A stretch of DNA of 64,000 nt from Gloeobacter violaceus PCC 7421. Lineage in GTDB: Bacteria > Cyanobacteriota > Cyanobacteriia > Gloeobacterales > Gloeobacteraceae. Every line of letters starts with the position of its first letter. Position 1 is the first letter of the stretch. The notes under the pieces were generated by a model that was given only the letters and a program-made list of their open reading frames with translations, searched no databases and had not been told where the DNA came from. A program made the position numbers and the translations under genes. The stretch spans positions 992,001 through 1,056,000 of the forward strand of contig NC_005125.1 in assembly GCF_000011385.1 (NCBI RefSeq), in the 5' to 3' direction. This document shows positions 51,166 to 58,285 of this stretch, piece by piece.

Positions 51166-51867
51166 CTACTCGTGGGGGGTATTACCGTCCAGTTGTTCAA
51201 GATAGTAACGGGCGAACTCGGCGACTTTCTCGTCGTCGTCTTTGGCCAGATAGGCGAGAGGTGCGCGGCTCGGCTCCTGGATATTGGTCTCGCGTGCCTG
51301 CAGGGCAATCAGACCCAGCGCCTGAGCAATGCGGCGGCGCACTTCGGGGTCCGGATTGGGCACCAATGGCAACAGCACGTCGAGGGCGCGGGCGTTGCCC
51401 AGTTCGCCCAGTGCACTGATGGCGGCATCGCGGATCATGTCGGTGTCGCTTGCGATCGCGTCGCGCAGTACCGGGTAGCCTCGCTCGTCGCGCAACTGCC
51501 CCAGCGAGACCACCGCGCTGTAACGGACGATCCAGTCGATGTCTTCGTAATAAGCCCGCAACAGGTATTCCACCGCCCGTATGTCCCCGAGCGAGCCCAG
51601 GGAGCCCGCCGCCTCCGCCCGTACCGAGGCGTCTTTGTCGTTGTTGAGCAAGTCGATGAGCAAGTCGAAGTTGCCTTCGCCCTTCTTCTTACCCAAACCG
51701 ATGGCGGCGTAGACGCGCACCAGCGGAATCGGGTCGAGAGCCGCCTGGAACAGCAGCGGCACCGCTTCTTCGTCCGAGAAAAAACGCAGGGCAACCAGGG
51801 CGGCCATGCGCTTGCCGGGGTCGGCACTGGCCATTTGGGCTTTTACTTCTTCTAGAGAGGATGTCAT
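51166..51867 (-). CDS. HEAT-repeat protein (NblB/CpcE-like lyase family)
   Basis: 233 residues forming about six HEAT repeats of about 30 residues: VRVYAAIGLGKKKGE, VRAEAAGSLGSLGD, IVRYSAVVSLGQLRDERG, IRDAAISALGELGNARAL, VRRRIAQALGLIAL. Short HEAT proteins in cyanobacteria include phycobilin lyases (CpcE/F) and NblB, which acts in chromophore detachment and phycobilisome degradation. Those are candidates; a general scaffold role cannot be excluded. Divergent from the tubulin-like gene, 118 bp between starts. Confidence 0.85.
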   Translation of the reverse strand: MTSSLEEVKAQMASADPGKRMAALVALRFFSDEEAVPLLFQAALDPIPLVRVYAAIGLGKKKGEGNFDLLIDLLNNDKDASVRAEAAGSLGSLGDIRAVEYLLRAYYEDIDWIVRYSAVVSLGQLRDERGYPVLRDAIASDTDMIRDAAISALGELGNARALDVLLPLVPNPDPEVRRRIAQALGLIALQARETNIQEPSRAPLAYLAKDDDEKVAEFARYYLEQLDGNTPHE

Positions 51868-51985: not shown

Positions 51986-54900
51986 ATGGCGATGGCTGAA
52001 TACACCGGCATGACTCCGACGGTGGTGGTCGGTCTCGGGGGCACAGGCAAAGAGATTCTGATTAAAATTCGGCGGATGATCGTCGAGTCCTACGGCACCC
52101 TCGACGCGCTGCCGATCGTGTCGTTTTTGCACCTCGACACCGAGCAGAACGCTAAAGTCTCCGAGCCGCAGACGGTGCTCAAACAGGATATCTCCCTGCG
52201 GCCGGTGGAGCAGGTTTGGACGAAGGTCGAAGATGCCAAGGCGATCCTCAGCCGCATCGGCTCCTACCCGTACCTGGCGGAATGGTTCCCAAGCCAGCTC
52301 AAAGGCACCGATTCGATTCTGGCCGGAGCGGGTCAGATTCGCGCCTTGGGCCGCTTTGCCTTTGCAGTCAACTACCAGCAGGTCAAAGGTGCTTTCGCGG
52401 CGGCGCGCGGTCGCCTGCGCGGACACGAAAAATTTATGCTCGATACCTGGAAGGTGCAACTCGACCAGGGCATCAACATCTTCGTGGTGGGCTCGCTCTC
52501 GGGGGGGACCGGCTCGGGAATGCTCCTGGATCTGGCCTACAACCTGCGCGACTGGGTGCCGCCCTCGGATCTGCCCCAGTCGTCGGCCTATCTGGTGTTG
52601 CCGGGGGCTTTCTCCGGCCTGGGCGACCGGGTGATCGCCAATGCCTACGCGGCGTTGATGGAACTCGATTACTACAGCCGTACCGACACGCGCTTTGAAG
52701 CCCAGTACAGCACCGCCGCCTCCGACCGCATCAGCGATCAATCGGGCCGCGACGTGCCCTTTAACTTTTGCTATCTGGTGGGCAACTCCAACAACAAAGT
52801 CACCTTCGCCAGTCTGGAGGCGGTGCTGGAGATGGTGTCGCAAAATATTTTTCTCGATTTCTCCTCGGGTTTCAGCCAGTTCAAAAAGCTCGTGCGCGAC
52901 AATATCCGCAAGCACTGGGCCGGCCCCGACCCGCTCGGTCATCCCCAGAGCTTTATTACCTTTGGACTGTCGAGCATCCAGTTTCCGATCGAGCGGGTGA
53001 TCAACGCCTGCGCCTCGCGATTGGCAGGCCGGGTGGTGCGCTGGTGGATGAATCCGACCCCGTCGCCCACCGCCATGCGCGACTTGATTCGCACCGAGAT
53101 TCTGCCCGGCCTGGTGCTCGCCGAATCGGACAACCAGCACCAATTGCTCGATTCGATCGCCATGGGCGACAACGCCAAGCCCTACACCAAAGAAGTGGCC
53201 GACTGGGCGGCAAGCCTGCGCAAGCGCCGCAACGACCTGCAAATTCCCTTTGAAAATCTGCAGCGCTTTGTCTTGGTCGAGCAGGAGAAGTACGCTGTGC
53301 ACTTTAGCGACGGCGACACCGACCCGCGCCGCTGGAGCGACTTCTACCAAAAAATGTTCGACAACCTGGAGCGGCTGAGTGTCCAGAAGTGCACCGAGCT
53401 ACGCGCCACGGTCGCCAAGATGATCGAAGACCGCTTTCGGGGACCGAAGTTCGCCCGCCAGTTTCTGGAGGTGCTGCTGGAAGTCTTGGCCGATTACAAA
53501 AGCCGCTTCGACCAGGATCGCCAGAAGAACTCGATCCCCCAGGAGCGCTCCGCCGCCAACGCCCTGCAGACACTCACCAAGCAGATCGACGACCAGGCCC
53601 GCCAGTTTCTGCTGCTCGATCGCAAGCGCCGCATCGACGAGACCTTCAACGCGATCATGCTTGCCCTGGAGACGGTCTACGTCTCCAAGATCGAAGTCAA
53701 AAGCCGCACCCTCGGGGTGCAGCTCGTCGAGGCGCTCCGGGAAGAGACTGAGCGGCTATTGAGCGATCTCACCCGCTTCGACCGGTTGATGGAGAGCCTC
53801 GAAGCGCAGTTTGCAGACAAAGAGAATACTTATCTGCGCGAGACGCGCACGCTCACGGTCAACGGCATCCTGCTCTACGACGAAAAAGACGTCGGCATGA
53901 TTTACCAGAACACCCTGGGAGAACGCGAGCAGGCCGTCTGCGGGCTGATCTCCGAGAAGGTGCTCACCGCGAGCGACGCGATGCTGTTTGACCTGCACAC
54001 CTTCGACACCTTCCGTGCCCGGGATCTGTTCAGCCGTCTACTCGATGCGAGCCTGGATGAATTCGTGGGCCGCTCGCGCGCCCGCGTCTCCGCCGCGCGC
54101 AAGTTTCTGGAAACTTACCCGACCGTCGAGCAGCAGGAGGCGCAGATCAAGACGACCTTCGAAAAATCGGAGCCCTTTTTGCGCTTTTCCCAGGAGCAGG
54201 CCCGCCTCGGCTGGGACGACAAACCCGAGAAGCGCCAGACCCTGGTGGGCATCCAGGGGGGCAACAAACCCGACGATCCGGCGGCGGCGACGCTTTTGCC
54301 CTTCATCCGCAAAACGAGCACGATCACCGACAAGGACATCCGGCCTTTGGGCGAGTCGCACCGGATCTTCTTTGTGCAGGAGGCGGGGGCCTTTCCGCTT
54401 AGGCTCATCGAGGGCATGGCCCGCATGCGCAGCGTCTACCGGGCGGTCAAAGCCGTCGAGCGCAACCCGCTGCATACCGACAGCGACGAGGACCGCTTCG
54501 GCGATTTGATGCCTTCGACCGAGGACGAAGTGCAGGTGCGCCGCAACGCCATCCTCGGCCGCGCCCTGGACCTGATCGATTTGGTCGAAAACAAGCTCAC
54601 CGGTTACCAGGAAGCCCGTCTGCGCTTTTTTGACCGTCAGTCGGGGCTCGAAAAAACCGAGGTGCTTGGCAACGACTGGCAAAGTGCGACCGAATTTCTG
54701 CTCAACGACGCCAACCGCCGCCTCAAGGACATCCTGGCCGACGAGCTGGCCCGCCAGGGCGGCTCGCCCACCACCCGCCCGGCCAAGCAGGAATTTTATA
54801 CCCGCCTGATGCAGTGGCTGGCGGTTCACCGCGCCGAGATTGAAGGGGGCGAGGACAACCCCGCCTACCGGGAGGCCGCCGAGGCGATCGAAGACTTTAT

Positions 54901-55360
54901 CAAGACCCACAATCTCTACATCGAGGGCACGCCCCGCCCCGGCGCGGCGGCAAACGGCCCCGCCAGAGCCACCCCCGCCCCGCCCCCGGCGGCGATCCTA
55001 CAGCCGGGCGATCCCGCCCGCGAGAGCAACCTCGACAAATACCGCAAGCTGGTCGAGAGCTGCGTCAAGGACGGCGAGCTGAGCGCCACTGAGAAGACGC
55101 TGCTGGAGCGCTTCCGGGTGCGCTACAGTGTCAGCCCCGAGCAGTCGCAGCAACTGATCGAGCTGCTGACGCCCAAACCCCAAAATAAAGGAGCGGTGCT
55201 CGAATACGGCCTGATGTTCCGGGCGTTTCTCGAAAACGACGCGGCCATCGACCCGGAGGAGCAGGCGCAACTGTTGGAATTGCAAGAAGAATTGGGGCTC
55301 ACCAACGATCAGGTCCACATCATCGAAGCCAACGTCAAAGAAGAGCTGGGTCAAAGCTAG
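51986..55360 (+). CDS. Giant tubulin-like protein (Tubulin_2 family)
   Basis: 1124 residues. N-terminal nucleotide-binding region: PTVVVGLGGTGKEILIKIRR (G-loop at 16-21) and the tubulin signature SLSGGTGSGM at 172-178, as in FtsZ/tubulin. The large middle part is helical with charged stretches. The C-terminal about 110 residues form two helical modules (about 1010-1060 and 1070-1120: CVKDGELSATEKTLLERFR; EELGLTNDQVHIIEANV), of the TerB/EF-hand-like sort found at ends of many cyanobacterial signalling proteins. There is a Pro/Ala linker before them. Strong ribosome-binding site AAGGAAGG. Related large tubulin-like proteins are predicted to remodel membranes; none is well characterised. Operon with the next gene (12 bp gap). 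Confidence 0.9.
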   Translation: MAMAEYTGMTPTVVVGLGGTGKEILIKIRRMIVESYGTLDALPIVSFLHLDTEQNAKVSEPQTVLKQDISLRPVEQVWTKVEDAKAILSRIGSYPYLAEWFPSQLKGTDSILAGAGQIRALGRFAFAVNYQQVKGAFAAARGRLRGHEKFMLDTWKVQLDQGINIFVVGSLSGGTGSGMLLDLAYNLRDWVPPSDLPQSSAYLVLPGAFSGLGDRVIANAYAALMELDYYSRTDTRFEAQYSTAASDRISDQSGRDVPFNFCYLVGNSNNKVTFASLEAVLEMVSQNIFLDFSSGFSQFKKLVRDNIRKHWAGPDPLGHPQSFITFGLSSIQFPIERVINACASRLAGRVVRWWMNPTPSPTAMRDLIRTEILPGLVLAESDNQHQLLDSIAMGDNAKPYTKEVADWAASLRKRRNDLQIPFENLQRFVLVEQEKYAVHFSDGDTDPRRWSDFYQKMFDNLERLSVQKCTELRATVAKMIEDRFRGPKFARQFLEVLLEVLADYKSRFDQDRQKNSIPQERSAANALQTLTKQIDDQARQFLLLDRKRRIDETFNAIMLALETVYVSKIEVKSRTLGVQLVEALREETERLLSDLTRFDRLMESLEAQFADKENTYLRETRTLTVNGILLYDEKDVGMIYQNTLGEREQAVCGLISEKVLTASDAMLFDLHTFDTFRARDLFSRLLDASLDEFVGRSRARVSAARKFLETYPTVEQQEAQIKTTFEKSEPFLRFSQEQARLGWDDKPEKRQTLVGIQGGNKPDDPAAATLLPFIRKTSTITDKDIRPLGESHRIFFVQEAGAFPLRLIEGMARMRSVYRAVKAVERNPLHTDSDEDRFGDLMPSTEDEVQVRRNAILGRALDLIDLVENKLTGYQEARLRFFDRQSGLEKTEVLGNDWQSATEFLLNDANRRLKDILADELARQGGSPTTRPAKQEFYTRLMQWLAVHRAEIEGGEDNPAYREAAEAIEDFIKTHNLYIEGTPRPGAAANGPARATPAPPPAAILQPGDPARESNLDKYRKLVESCVKDGELSATEKTLLERFRVRYSVSPEQSQQLIELLTPKPQNKGAVLEYGLMFRAFLENDAAIDPEEQAQLLELQEELGLTNDQVHIIEANVKEELGQS

Positions 55361-55372
55361 GAGGCTCCTGCC

Positions 55373-56527
55373 ATGGTTCGCGACCTCACCTACGTCACCT
55401 GCCCCAAGTGCGGCCACGACCGCAACCCCAACACCGCCACCAACTGCGAAATTTGCGGCCAGCGCCTCAAAGGCGGCGGCATCCCCCCCATCGCCTGGAT
55501 CGCCCTGGCGGTGCTGCTGTTGGGCGGGGCCGGGTACTACTTCTGGCAAAATCGCCCCGGCGAGGCCCCGGCCCCGGTGGCTTCCACCCCGGCGCCGCCC
55601 GCTTCCACTGCGCCCGCCCAACCGGCCACCACCCCCGGCCTGGAGCAGGTCAAATCGCCTTTTGTGAAGCTTTTCGCCACGATGGCCGAAGTCGAGAATG
55701 TCCCGAGCGGGCTGTTCAACTACGGCGGCTCGACCACTTTTGCCCCCTTGCGCTCCCGCACGGTCCTGGGTGCAATTGCCCAGGCTCATCCCAATTTCAA
55801 ATTGCGCTACGCGGAGCCCGTGAGCGGCAAACCCGGCTCCGGCACCGGCATCGCCATGCTGATCGCGGGCGAGATGAGCTTTGCCCAGTCCTCGCGGGCG
55901 GTCAAATCCAAAGAGTACGCCGCGGCCAAAGAGCGGGGCATTGCCCTGGAGCAGGTACCGGTGGCTATCGACGGGCTCGCCTTTTTCGTCAATCCGGCCA
56001 ACTCGGTAGCTGGGCTCTCGGTCGATCAGATCGTGGGCCTTTTTACCGGCAAGATCACCAACTGGAAGCAGGTGGGCGGACCGGACCGGCCGGTGGTTCC
56101 CTTTAGCCGCAATTTGCAGGCGGGGGGCACAGTCGACTATTTCAACGAAGAAGTGCTGGGCGGCGCCGGGCTCGGCAAAGTCGTGCGCGAGACGCGCGAC
56201 ACCACCGACGCACTGCGCAAAGTCGCCGCCACCCCCGGCGGCGTCGGCTACGCCACCGCTTCTGAAGTGATCGGCCAGCGCTCGGTGCGGCCCGTTCCCC
56301 TGGCGCGCTCCAACTCCCGCGAGTACGTGGCGCCTTTCGCCGAAGACAGCCAGGTCAACCGCACCGCCTTTCGCGACGGCACCTACCCGGTCACCCGGCG
56401 CTTATTCGTGGTCATCCGCCGCGACGGCAGGCTCGATGAGCAGGCCGGGGCTGCCTACGCCAACCTGCTGCTTTCCGGCGAGGGCCAGCAATTGGTGGAG
56501 AAGTCCGGATTCGTGGCTATCCGTTAG
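55373..56527 (+). CDS. Zinc-ribbon, single-pass protein with PstS-like binding domain
   Basis: 384 residues. Zinc ribbon C10-x2-C13 / C25-x2-C28 at the N-terminus, membrane helix 38-57 (PPIAWIALAVLLLGGAGYYF), Pro/Ala linker (about 60-90), then a periplasmic phosphate-binding-like domain (about 110-384): FNYGGSTTFAPLR, SGKPGSGTGIAMLIAGEMSF and IVGLFTGKITNWKQVGG, which match PstS/PBP-like_2 proteins. The N-in/C-out topology places the zinc ribbon in the cytoplasm with the tubulin-like protein and the ligand domain outside. There is no ABC permease nearby. Confidence 0.9.
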   Translation: MVRDLTYVTCPKCGHDRNPNTATNCEICGQRLKGGGIPPIAWIALAVLLLGGAGYYFWQNRPGEAPAPVASTPAPPASTAPAQPATTPGLEQVKSPFVKLFATMAEVENVPSGLFNYGGSTTFAPLRSRTVLGAIAQAHPNFKLRYAEPVSGKPGSGTGIAMLIAGEMSFAQSSRAVKSKEYAAAKERGIALEQVPVAIDGLAFFVNPANSVAGLSVDQIVGLFTGKITNWKQVGGPDRPVVPFSRNLQAGGTVDYFNEEVLGGAGLGKVVRETRDTTDALRKVAATPGGVGYATASEVIGQRSVRPVPLARSNSREYVAPFAEDSQVNRTAFRDGTYPVTRRLFVVIRRDGRLDEQAGAAYANLLLSGEGQQLVEKSGFVAIR

Positions 56528-56614: not shown

Positions 56615-58285
56615 ATGGAAACAACGGTACTGTCGCTGTGGACTCGTGATCGAAAGGTTCCCCGGTGTGCGCCGCGCCGTTGGCGGGGGTGGTTGAGCTT
56701 CTCGTTGGGGGTGTGGTGGTGCGTGGTTTCCCTGGCGCCAGTAGGGGCGCAGGCACTGCTGAGGGCGGTGGAGACCCCGGTGGGTGGGGGCCTGGGTTTT
56801 GTCATCAACGGCAGCAACAACTACGATCGCTCCGGCACTTCTGTCAGCGGGGCGGGGGACGTCAACGGCGACGGGCTGGATGATGTGATTGTCGGGGCTT
56901 CCAGTGCCTCCCCGGACGGACGGTACGCAGCCGGTCGCAGCTACGTGGTCTTCGGCAAGCGGGGCGGCCAACCAGCCGAATTGTCCACCCTTGAAAATGG
57001 CACGAGCCGGGACGGCTTTGTCATCAACGGCAGCAATAACTACGATGGCTCCGGGTATTCTGTCGACGGGGCGGGAGACGTCAACGGCGACGGGCTGGAT
57101 GATGTGATTGTCGGGGCTCCCGGTGCCGACCCGGACAGTCGGTACGCAGCTGGCCGCAGCTACGTGGTCTTCGGCAAGCGGGGCGGCCAACCGGTCGAGT
57201 TGGCCACCCTCGAAAGCGGCACGAGTCGCAACGGCTTTGTGATTAACGGCAGCAATGACTACGATAGCGCCGGCATTGCTGTCAGCGGAGTGGGGGACGT
57301 CAACGGCGACGGGCTGGATGATGTGATTGTCGGGGCTCCCGGTGCCGACCCGGACAGTCGGTACGCAGCTGGCCGCAGCTACGTGGTCTTCGGCAAGCGG
57401 GGCGGCCAACCGGTCGAGTTGGCCACCCTCGAAAGCGGCACGAGTCGCAACGGCTTTGTGATTAACGGCAGCATTGAAAACTTTCTCTCCGGCGTTGCTG
57501 TCAGCGGGGCGGGGGACGTCAACGGCGACGGACTCGATGACCTGATCGTCGGGACCGACCCGGACGGTCGGTACAATACCGAACACAGCTACGTGGTGTT
57601 CGGCAAGCGCAACGGCAGACCTGTGGAGTTGTCGGCGCTCGAAAGCGGCAACAGCCGGACGGGCTTTGTCATCAATGGCATTTACTTTGCTGAATCCGGC
57701 GAATCTGTGGGCGGAGCGGGGGACGTCAACGGCGACGGATTGGACGATGTGATCGTCGGGGCTCCCGTTGCCACCCCGCCTGATGGCTACTTTTCTGGCC
57801 AAAGCTACGTAGTGTTCGGCAAGCGCAACAGCCAACCGGTCGAACTGACAGACATCGGAAGAGGCACCGGTCGGGACGGCTTTGTCATCAACGGCAGCAA
57901 TGACTACGATAGCGCCGGCCGATCTGTGGGCGGAGCGGGGGACGTCAACGGCGACGGATTGGACGATGTGCTCGTCTATGCTCCCTTTGCCTACCCGTAC
58001 GGTCGCAGCTATGTGGTCTTTGGTAAGCGCAGTACCCAACCGGTTGAATTGTCCACACTGGAAAGTGGCACCGGCCGCGACGGCTTTGTCATCAACGGTA
58101 GCAACAACTCTTTCAGCGGGGCAGAGGACGTCAACGGCGACGGCCTGGATGATGTGATTGTCGGGGTTTCCAGTGCCTCCCCGGACGGACGGTACGCAGC
58201 CGGCCGCAGCTACGTCGTGTTTGGCAAGCGCAACAGCCAACCGGTCGAACTGGCGGACTTGGAAGCCGCCGGGCAACTCCCTTGA
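56615..58285 (+). CDS. Secreted FG-GAP (integrin-alpha-like) repeat protein
   Basis: 556 residues. Hydrophobic signal segment near residues 35-50 (FSLGVWWCVVSLAPVGAQA), longer N-region than usual. About seven repeats of about 73 residues: GAGDVNGDGLDDVIVGAP (calcium site) then GRSYVVFGKRGGQPVEL then DGFVINGSNNYD, consistent with a seven-bladed propeller. Two adjacent repeats share 178 identical bases. The last repeats are slightly degenerate. An adhesion or surface role is likely but unproven. Confidence 0.92.
   Translation: METTVLSLWTRDRKVPRCAPRRWRGWLSFSLGVWWCVVSLAPVGAQALLRAVETPVGGGLGFVINGSNNYDRSGTSVSGAGDVNGDGLDDVIVGASSASPDGRYAAGRSYVVFGKRGGQPAELSTLENGTSRDGFVINGSNNYDGSGYSVDGAGDVNGDGLDDVIVGAPGADPDSRYAAGRSYVVFGKRGGQPVELATLESGTSRNGFVINGSNDYDSAGIAVSGVGDVNGDGLDDVIVGAPGADPDSRYAAGRSYVVFGKRGGQPVELATLESGTSRNGFVINGSIENFLSGVAVSGAGDVNGDGLDDLIVGTDPDGRYNTEHSYVVFGKRNGRPVELSALESGNSRTGFVINGIYFAESGESVGGAGDVNGDGLDDVIVGAPVATPPDGYFSGQSYVVFGKRNSQPVELTDIGRGTGRDGFVINGSNDYDSAGRSVGGAGDVNGDGLDDVLVYAPFAYPYGRSYVVFGKRSTQPVELSTLESGTGRDGFVINGSNNSFSGAEDVNGDGLDDVIVGVSSASPDGRYAAGRSYVVFGKRNSQPVELADLEAAGQLP
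57077..57473 (+). repeat. 178-bp perfect direct repeat inside the FG-GAP gene
   Basis: 57077-57254 and 57296-57473 are identical at all 178 bases, period 219 bp (73 codons). Neighbouring repeats have diverged at silent sites, so this pair arose by recent duplication or gene conversion. Confidence 0.95.

Follow-up and report, generated by a model that had tools for sequence, protein, structure and literature searches.

The giant tubulin-family protein encoded in the 4.66-Mb genome of Gloeobacter violaceus is tied, in its own genome and in relatives across the class, to a membrane protein composed of a cytoplasmic zinc ribbon, a single transmembrane (TM) helix and an external binding-protein domain. 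While the ribbon and the helix are constant, the external domain has been swapped between two ligand-binding families. In our judgement the chances are slightly in favor of the pair being a ligand-gated membrane receptor that controls a tubulin GTPase scaffold through contact between the ribbon and an adaptor module of the tubulin (TUBC). The features on which this reading is based are collected in Table 1; the window is the whole stretch of DNA that was analyzed, 64,000 nucleotides in length.

Table 1. Features of the tubulin-partner locus (positions within the window)
Feature	Position	Strand	Basis
Tubulin_2 / FtsZl1-family gene, 1124 aa	51986..55360	+	ORF; PF13809 E=8e-99; AlphaFold2 model pLDDT 84
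Predicted tubulin GTPase domain, followed by the first part of the C-terminal domain (aa 7-355)	52004..53050	+	Pfam 13-351; structural match to tubulins, CetZ
First glycine motif GLGGTG (aa 16-21)	52031..52048	+	No variation at G16, G18, G19, G21 among 40 homologues
Second glycine motif SLSGGTGSG (T4 loop, aa 170-178)	52493..52519	+	S170, G173-G178 invariant in 40 homologues
Predicted ~390-aa helical insertion (aa ~356-749), two long helices (486-540, 546-621)	53051..54232	+	Model secondary structure; tubulin chains align across; boundaries inferred
Probable remainder of tubulin C-terminal domain past the insertion (aa ~750-843)	54233..54514	+	Structural alignments stop at 843; conserved residues
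C-terminal adaptor module TUBC (aa 1010-1120)	55013..55345	+	Models; profile; common to caspase, FGE and kinase proteins
Shine-Dalgarno AGGAGG of partner gene, overlapping tubulin stop codon	55359..55364	+	Sequence
Partner gene, 384 aa, encoding zinc ribbon, single TM helix and external PstS-like domain	55373..56527	+	ORF; Pfam
Cytoplasmic zinc ribbon C10-C13-C25-C28	55400..55456	+	Four Cys invariant in 17 aligned sequences
Predicted TM helix (aa ~37-58)	55481..55546	+	Hydropathy of near-identical L061 protein; conserved alignment position
External PBP_like_2 / PstS-type domain (aa 116-382)	55718..56518	+	PF12849 3e-33; closest solved structures

The two open reading frames, of 1124 and 384 residues, lie on the same strand 12 nt apart, exactly as the earlier note had described them, and chance is excluded as an explanation. 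In the larger protein Pfam family Tubulin_2 (PF13809) covers residues 13-351, scoring 331.7 bits against a cut-off of 27 (E=8e-99). Both tubulin glycine motifs are nearly invariant in an alignment of 40 homologues, and the helical C-terminal modules that had been read from the sequence are found in the AlphaFold2 model (40 aligned sequences as input; mean pLDDT 84, pTM 0.67). The tubulin fold, on which the earlier note had staked its proposal, is likewise predicted: Foldseek matches the model to CetZ and tubulins, and VIA-align places tubulin chains on it with Z of about 21-22 over 319-356 residues at about 4.0-4.6 A, the aligned range starting at residue 8-10 and stopping at 843-844. Tubulins are about 430 residues long. 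An alignment that extends to residue 843 therefore implies that the tubulin C-terminal domain is present in the model but split. In other words, the 1124-residue protein is predicted to have a tubulin fold whose C-terminal domain comes after a helical insertion of ~390 residues. The order of helices and strands, from which the boundaries were drawn, suggests that residues ~356-749 are inserted and that 750-843 complete the domain. This assignment fits the strong conservation of residues ~799-843, a stretch that ranks with the best conserved in the protein and includes invariant E799, F803, Y818, H830, D840 and P843. A coiled coil and a helical C-terminus are both represented in the model, the former by long helices at 452-540 and 546-621 within the insertion, the latter by the C-terminal module. 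Since the canonical T7 GxxNxD catalytic motif was not recognized in the 40-row alignment, GTP hydrolysis and polymerization by the predicted GTPase are uncertain.

The tubulin family is not new. It was published in 2010 as FtsZl1, in an alignment that includes the Gloeobacter violaceus member, and membrane remodeling was proposed as its role (Makarova & Koonin 2010, PMC2875224). A reviewer of that paper flagged nearby periplasmic-binding proteins, suggesting transport or signaling. The earlier note, which knew of no characterized system like this one, thus has to be corrected for the family and its neighborhood, but a description of the pairing with this particular partner was not found in the papers searched. 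The Gloeobacter protein resembles FtsZl1 / Tubulin_2 (PF13809; PMC2875224) in having a tubulin domain at the N-terminus, a long coiled coil and a helical C-terminal end, and in its membrane-associated operon partners. However, the 2010 study identified nothing equivalent to the tubulin C-terminal domain, which our model places after the helical insertion; a 2023 survey notes that neither the FtsZ_C nor the Tubulin_C Pfam domain is found.

The partner, too, has the architecture that had been assigned to it. Its ribbon, CPKC-x11-CEIC at residues 10-28, matches the Pfam family DZR weakly (0.003; 18.0 bits, below the gathering score of 27.3), but an alignment of 17 sequences shows no change at any of its four cysteines. 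The external domain is recognized by PBP_like_2 (PF12849) with 116 bits against a gathering score of 27 (E=3e-33).

We searched 390 genomes of the class, 38 of which hold a close relative of the tubulin (subtype III), with a 61-residue profile of the zinc ribbon and TM helix, scored as present at E < 1e-18. The profile was found in 36 of the 38 genomes with the subtype III tubulin and in 0 of the 352 without it, among which the best score was 1.6e-12. One of the two exceptions has its tubulin gene cut at a contig edge (G298) and the other is an 83%-complete genome (G362). Fisher's test for the co-occurrence gives p=7e-49, a value that overstates the independent evidence, as related genomes are counted singly. 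Nineteen of the 38 carriers belong to one genus; altogether the carriers span eight families, several of which also include genomes with neither gene. In several families the genes are adjacent on the same strand with gaps of 9-30 nt. In at least 11 carrier genomes, including those of family f18 and several of genus g166, the partner is unlinked or on another contig, and the association is therefore independent of a shared operon. Co-occurrence in relatives, the other point on which the earlier note had made its proposal depend, thus holds even for unlinked copies. It also bears on the simplest alternative, that the two genes are unrelated neighbors without a functional link. Such an explanation would agree with the genes lying apart in one family and in part of a second one, but it is contradicted both by the 36/38 versus 0/352 distribution and by adjacency in several families with differing surroundings, and we regard it as extremely improbable. 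Because the f18 partners are not only unlinked but sometimes duplicated, a fixed 1:1 complex is not certain.

The taxonomic range of the carriers also touches on the suggestion that the pair is of special interest for an organism lacking thylakoids. Outside Gloeobacterales thylakoids are the rule in cyanobacteria. Since that is where most of the carriers are found, a connection with the peculiar membranes of Gloeobacter is not supported. A scan of named genomes returned a single locus, in Aphanocapsa lilacina (97%). In genome G491 (locus L131) the subtype III tubulin lies in overlapping broken frames next to a ribbon-TM-binding-protein gene; the broken tubulin may reflect an assembly error or decay.

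The second main observation is the exchange of the ectodomain. On the ribbon-helix unit, PBP_like_2 is found in Gloeobacteraceae, in family f15, in G064 and in the unlinked partners of f18, and the amino-acid-type domain Peripla_BP_6 in genus g166, G309, G304 and G491. Peripla_BP_6 carriers do not form one group on a quick tree of the tubulins: G304 and the PBP_like_2 carrier G064 are sisters there, which implies at least two switches. The same two domain types occur on other effectors. Two proteins, caspase-TUBC-TM-PBP_like_2 (L050) and caspase-TUBC-TM-Peripla_BP_6 (L054), are 75% identical over 350 residues of caspase and TUBC, yet their ectodomains differ, and the PBP_like_2-type ectodomain also occurs in L259, a kinase, and in L258, a CHAT protein. 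These observations hint at a modular receptor class, in which exchangeable ectodomains would gate the assembly of tubulin-family GTPases via a constant ribbon-helix, the same ectodomains being used on caspases and kinases; for this broader generalization we put the chances somewhat below even. A ribbon-TM protein with a third type of binding ectodomain (NMT1-like, 2.6e-9) is encoded at L088:2656-3627, next to an ORF weakly similar to the middle part of the tubulin.

Phosphate or another oxyanion, put forward in the earlier note, fails as the general ligand: many relatives have an amino-acid-type binding protein on this ribbon-helix, so that a general role in phosphate sensing is not supported. 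For the Gloeobacter ectodomain itself, an oxyanion such as phosphate is possible. The domain resembles PstS-type phosphate-binding proteins in fold and sequence, phosphate-binding proteins being its nearest solved structures (E down to 2e-19), and the same genome encodes a 57% identical paralogue with ribbon and TM helix (G000 C1:12661-13944, L060), whose gene closes a cluster that includes several PstS-like genes and pst transport genes. Phosphate-starvation sensing specific to the Gloeobacter pair would be in line with both points. However, related pairs bear the amino-acid-type ectodomain, and the match to the PstS family TIGR02136, at E=1.7e-46, reaches 158.8 bits against a curated cut-off of 206.6. 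We therefore view this specific role as very unlikely. Unlike PstS proteins, the partner is membrane-anchored, has a cytoplasmic ribbon and lacks adjacent transporter genes. A Pho-box scan upstream of the tubulin gave nothing above shuffles, but it gave nothing at the pst operon either and thus carries no weight.

If the pair works as a receptor and its effector, the partner would be a single-pass receptor or anchor, with the PstS-type domain outside and the zinc ribbon inside, and the giant tubulin-family GTPase would act as its cytoplasmic effector. TUBC would recruit the tubulin to the membrane, most likely by touching the ribbon. Binding of a ligand outside would then alter the state of the ribbon and so control tubulin assembly on the membrane, with polymerization and the final output presumably following; the long helical insertion could reach other targets. 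The earlier note's route, in which an external ligand acts by way of the zinc ribbon on a tubulin GTPase linked to the membrane, is still the best-supported reading. What the analysis itself shows is the pairing, the make-up of the domains, the predicted tubulin fold and the exchange of ectodomains, whereas the signaling is something we infer.

The properties of TUBC allow a different reading. All subtype III tubulins with a complete C-terminus share this module, which in the models consists of two tandem three-helix repeats (six helices) after a disordered linker. Of the 390 genomes of the class, 209 contain a match to its profile. A caspase domain occurs in 33 of 47 sampled non-tubulin proteins that carry TUBC, an FGE domain in 15 and WD40 repeats in 7, with a PADLOC caspase match in 35 of the sampled proteins. 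Together with the caspase proteins with TM-PBP reported by Kaur et al. (PMC7159879), this might point to a stress, conflict or programmed-death module. In such a module the tubulin would be a signaling platform, to which TUBC caspases or kinases are brought by contacts between like TUBC modules, much as effector-associated domains act in the systems of Kaur et al. 2020. Yet at the threshold used Gloeobacter has one TUBC copy, that of the tubulin, and sampled f18 genomes likewise have a single copy in the tubulin itself, so that recruitment of TUBC caspases is not a general role. Further, PADLOC matches the tubulin weakly and to one candidate only (PDC-S48, 6e-5), and TUBC gave no named Pfam domain above threshold in proteins scanned singly. 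The single Gloeobacter copy is the reason for ranking homotypic recruitment lower, and we consider such a module improbable. By the same token, the Gloeobacter TUBC has no further TUBC protein as a possible partner, which favors contact with the ribbon or self-association. About six tandem TUBC-like repeats occur in three of the TUBC proteins (L224, L225, L228). Searching the PDB for folds like that of the TUBC model yielded nothing confident (best E 0.54). With the TUBC sequence profile, chloroplast Tic110 (4bm5) came up at 3.5e-7 overall, a weak resemblance in which no single stretch does better than 0.0017, and homology is not claimed.

A more serious alternative is that the ribbon-TM-PBP protein mainly anchors a membrane-shaping tubulin filament, its PBP fold being structural or wall-facing and not a sensor. 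Apart from agreeing with the remodeling role proposed in 2010 (PMC2875224), such a machine would be in line with the vWA-like and OmpA/MotB-like TM partners that subtype I operons of the same phylum have in the corresponding place, and it could tolerate swapping of ectodomains if only the anchor matters. What it accounts for poorly is that both exchanged ectodomains come from ligand-binding families and that they recur on kinases, CHAT and caspase proteins, a pattern suggestive of sensing. On balance we find it unlikely, less so than the other alternatives. Among the other cyanobacterial tubulins, those of subtype I (12 loci) are preceded by a vWA-like gene and followed by TM and MotB/OmpA-like genes. 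In subtype II a Cys-rich-TM-Peripla_BP_6 gene is often followed by a vWA-like gene and the tubulin, whose C-terminal end, in the three proteins scanned, carries a zinc ribbon, GYF_2 or SHOCT. Pfam supports the vWA assignments in both subtypes only weakly, and DxSxS-type motifs are part of their basis. Two tubulin subtypes are thus accompanied by binding-protein receptors, whereas the adaptor at the C-terminus of the tubulin is not constant. Subtype II operons were seen at L065-L067, L072, L073, L075, L080, L139, L140 and L143, most of them with the vWA-like gene.

The surroundings of the Gloeobacter pair differ from those of the closest described systems. No vWA gene was found among the neighbors scanned beside the tubulin in the window, and no DO-GTPase/GAP1 or MoxR-vWA core genes among six neighbors scanned in Pfam. 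In FtsZl1 operons (PMC2875224) vWA is frequent though not universal, whereas beside the Gloeobacter tubulin no vWA, GTPase or OmpA partner was seen; its partner is the ribbon-TM-PBP protein that is tied to subtype III. With GAP1-N2-type GTPase-centric systems (Kaur et al. 2020, PMC7159879) the pair shares a tubulin with a C-terminal helical domain, membrane-linked partners and variable components, but those systems are stated to be nearly absent from cyanobacteria and contain DO-GTPase and GAP1, neither of which was seen beside the pair. Closer in design are cyanobacterial caspase-TUBC-TM-PBP, kinase-TM-PBP and CHAT-TM-PBP proteins, which bear the same two ectodomain types over one TM helix and, in the caspase type, TUBC as well. 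In these proteins a single chain unites effector and receptor, whereas in Gloeobacter the proposed effector, the tubulin, is a protein of its own and the inner face bears a zinc ribbon.

In the literature searched we found no experimentally established function for the widespread Tubulin_2 family, nor a description of the ribbon-TM-binding-protein partner, the co-occurrence or the ectodomain exchange; subscription papers and the supplementary operon lists of 2010 were outside the scope of the search, so that an earlier tabulation is possible. New here are the partner tied to tubulin subtype III, the ectodomain exchange, the split C-terminal domain predicted by the model and the recurrence of TUBC in caspase, FGE and kinase proteins. 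A subtype-tied partner and exchanged sensors turn "membrane remodeling, perhaps" into a testable receptor-effector hypothesis. If this hypothesis is true, a bacterial tubulin relative is controlled by an external ligand. The pair also links tubulins to the kinds of adaptor and sensor found on cyanobacterial caspases and kinases.

Several other genes are worth pointing out. Divergent to the tubulin is a HEAT-repeat gene (window 51166-51867), which is retained next to it only in Gloeobacter relatives (L061, L130). Downstream of the pair, an FG-GAP repeat protein (window 56615-58285) is also present at L061 and absent from the more distant loci checked. Finally, the same genome has a second, divergent Tubulin_2 relative of 471 residues (G000 C1 about 3161632-3163047, L002:1015-2430), with 35 bits to PF13809 and the motifs GIGGTG and SVFGGTGAAG.
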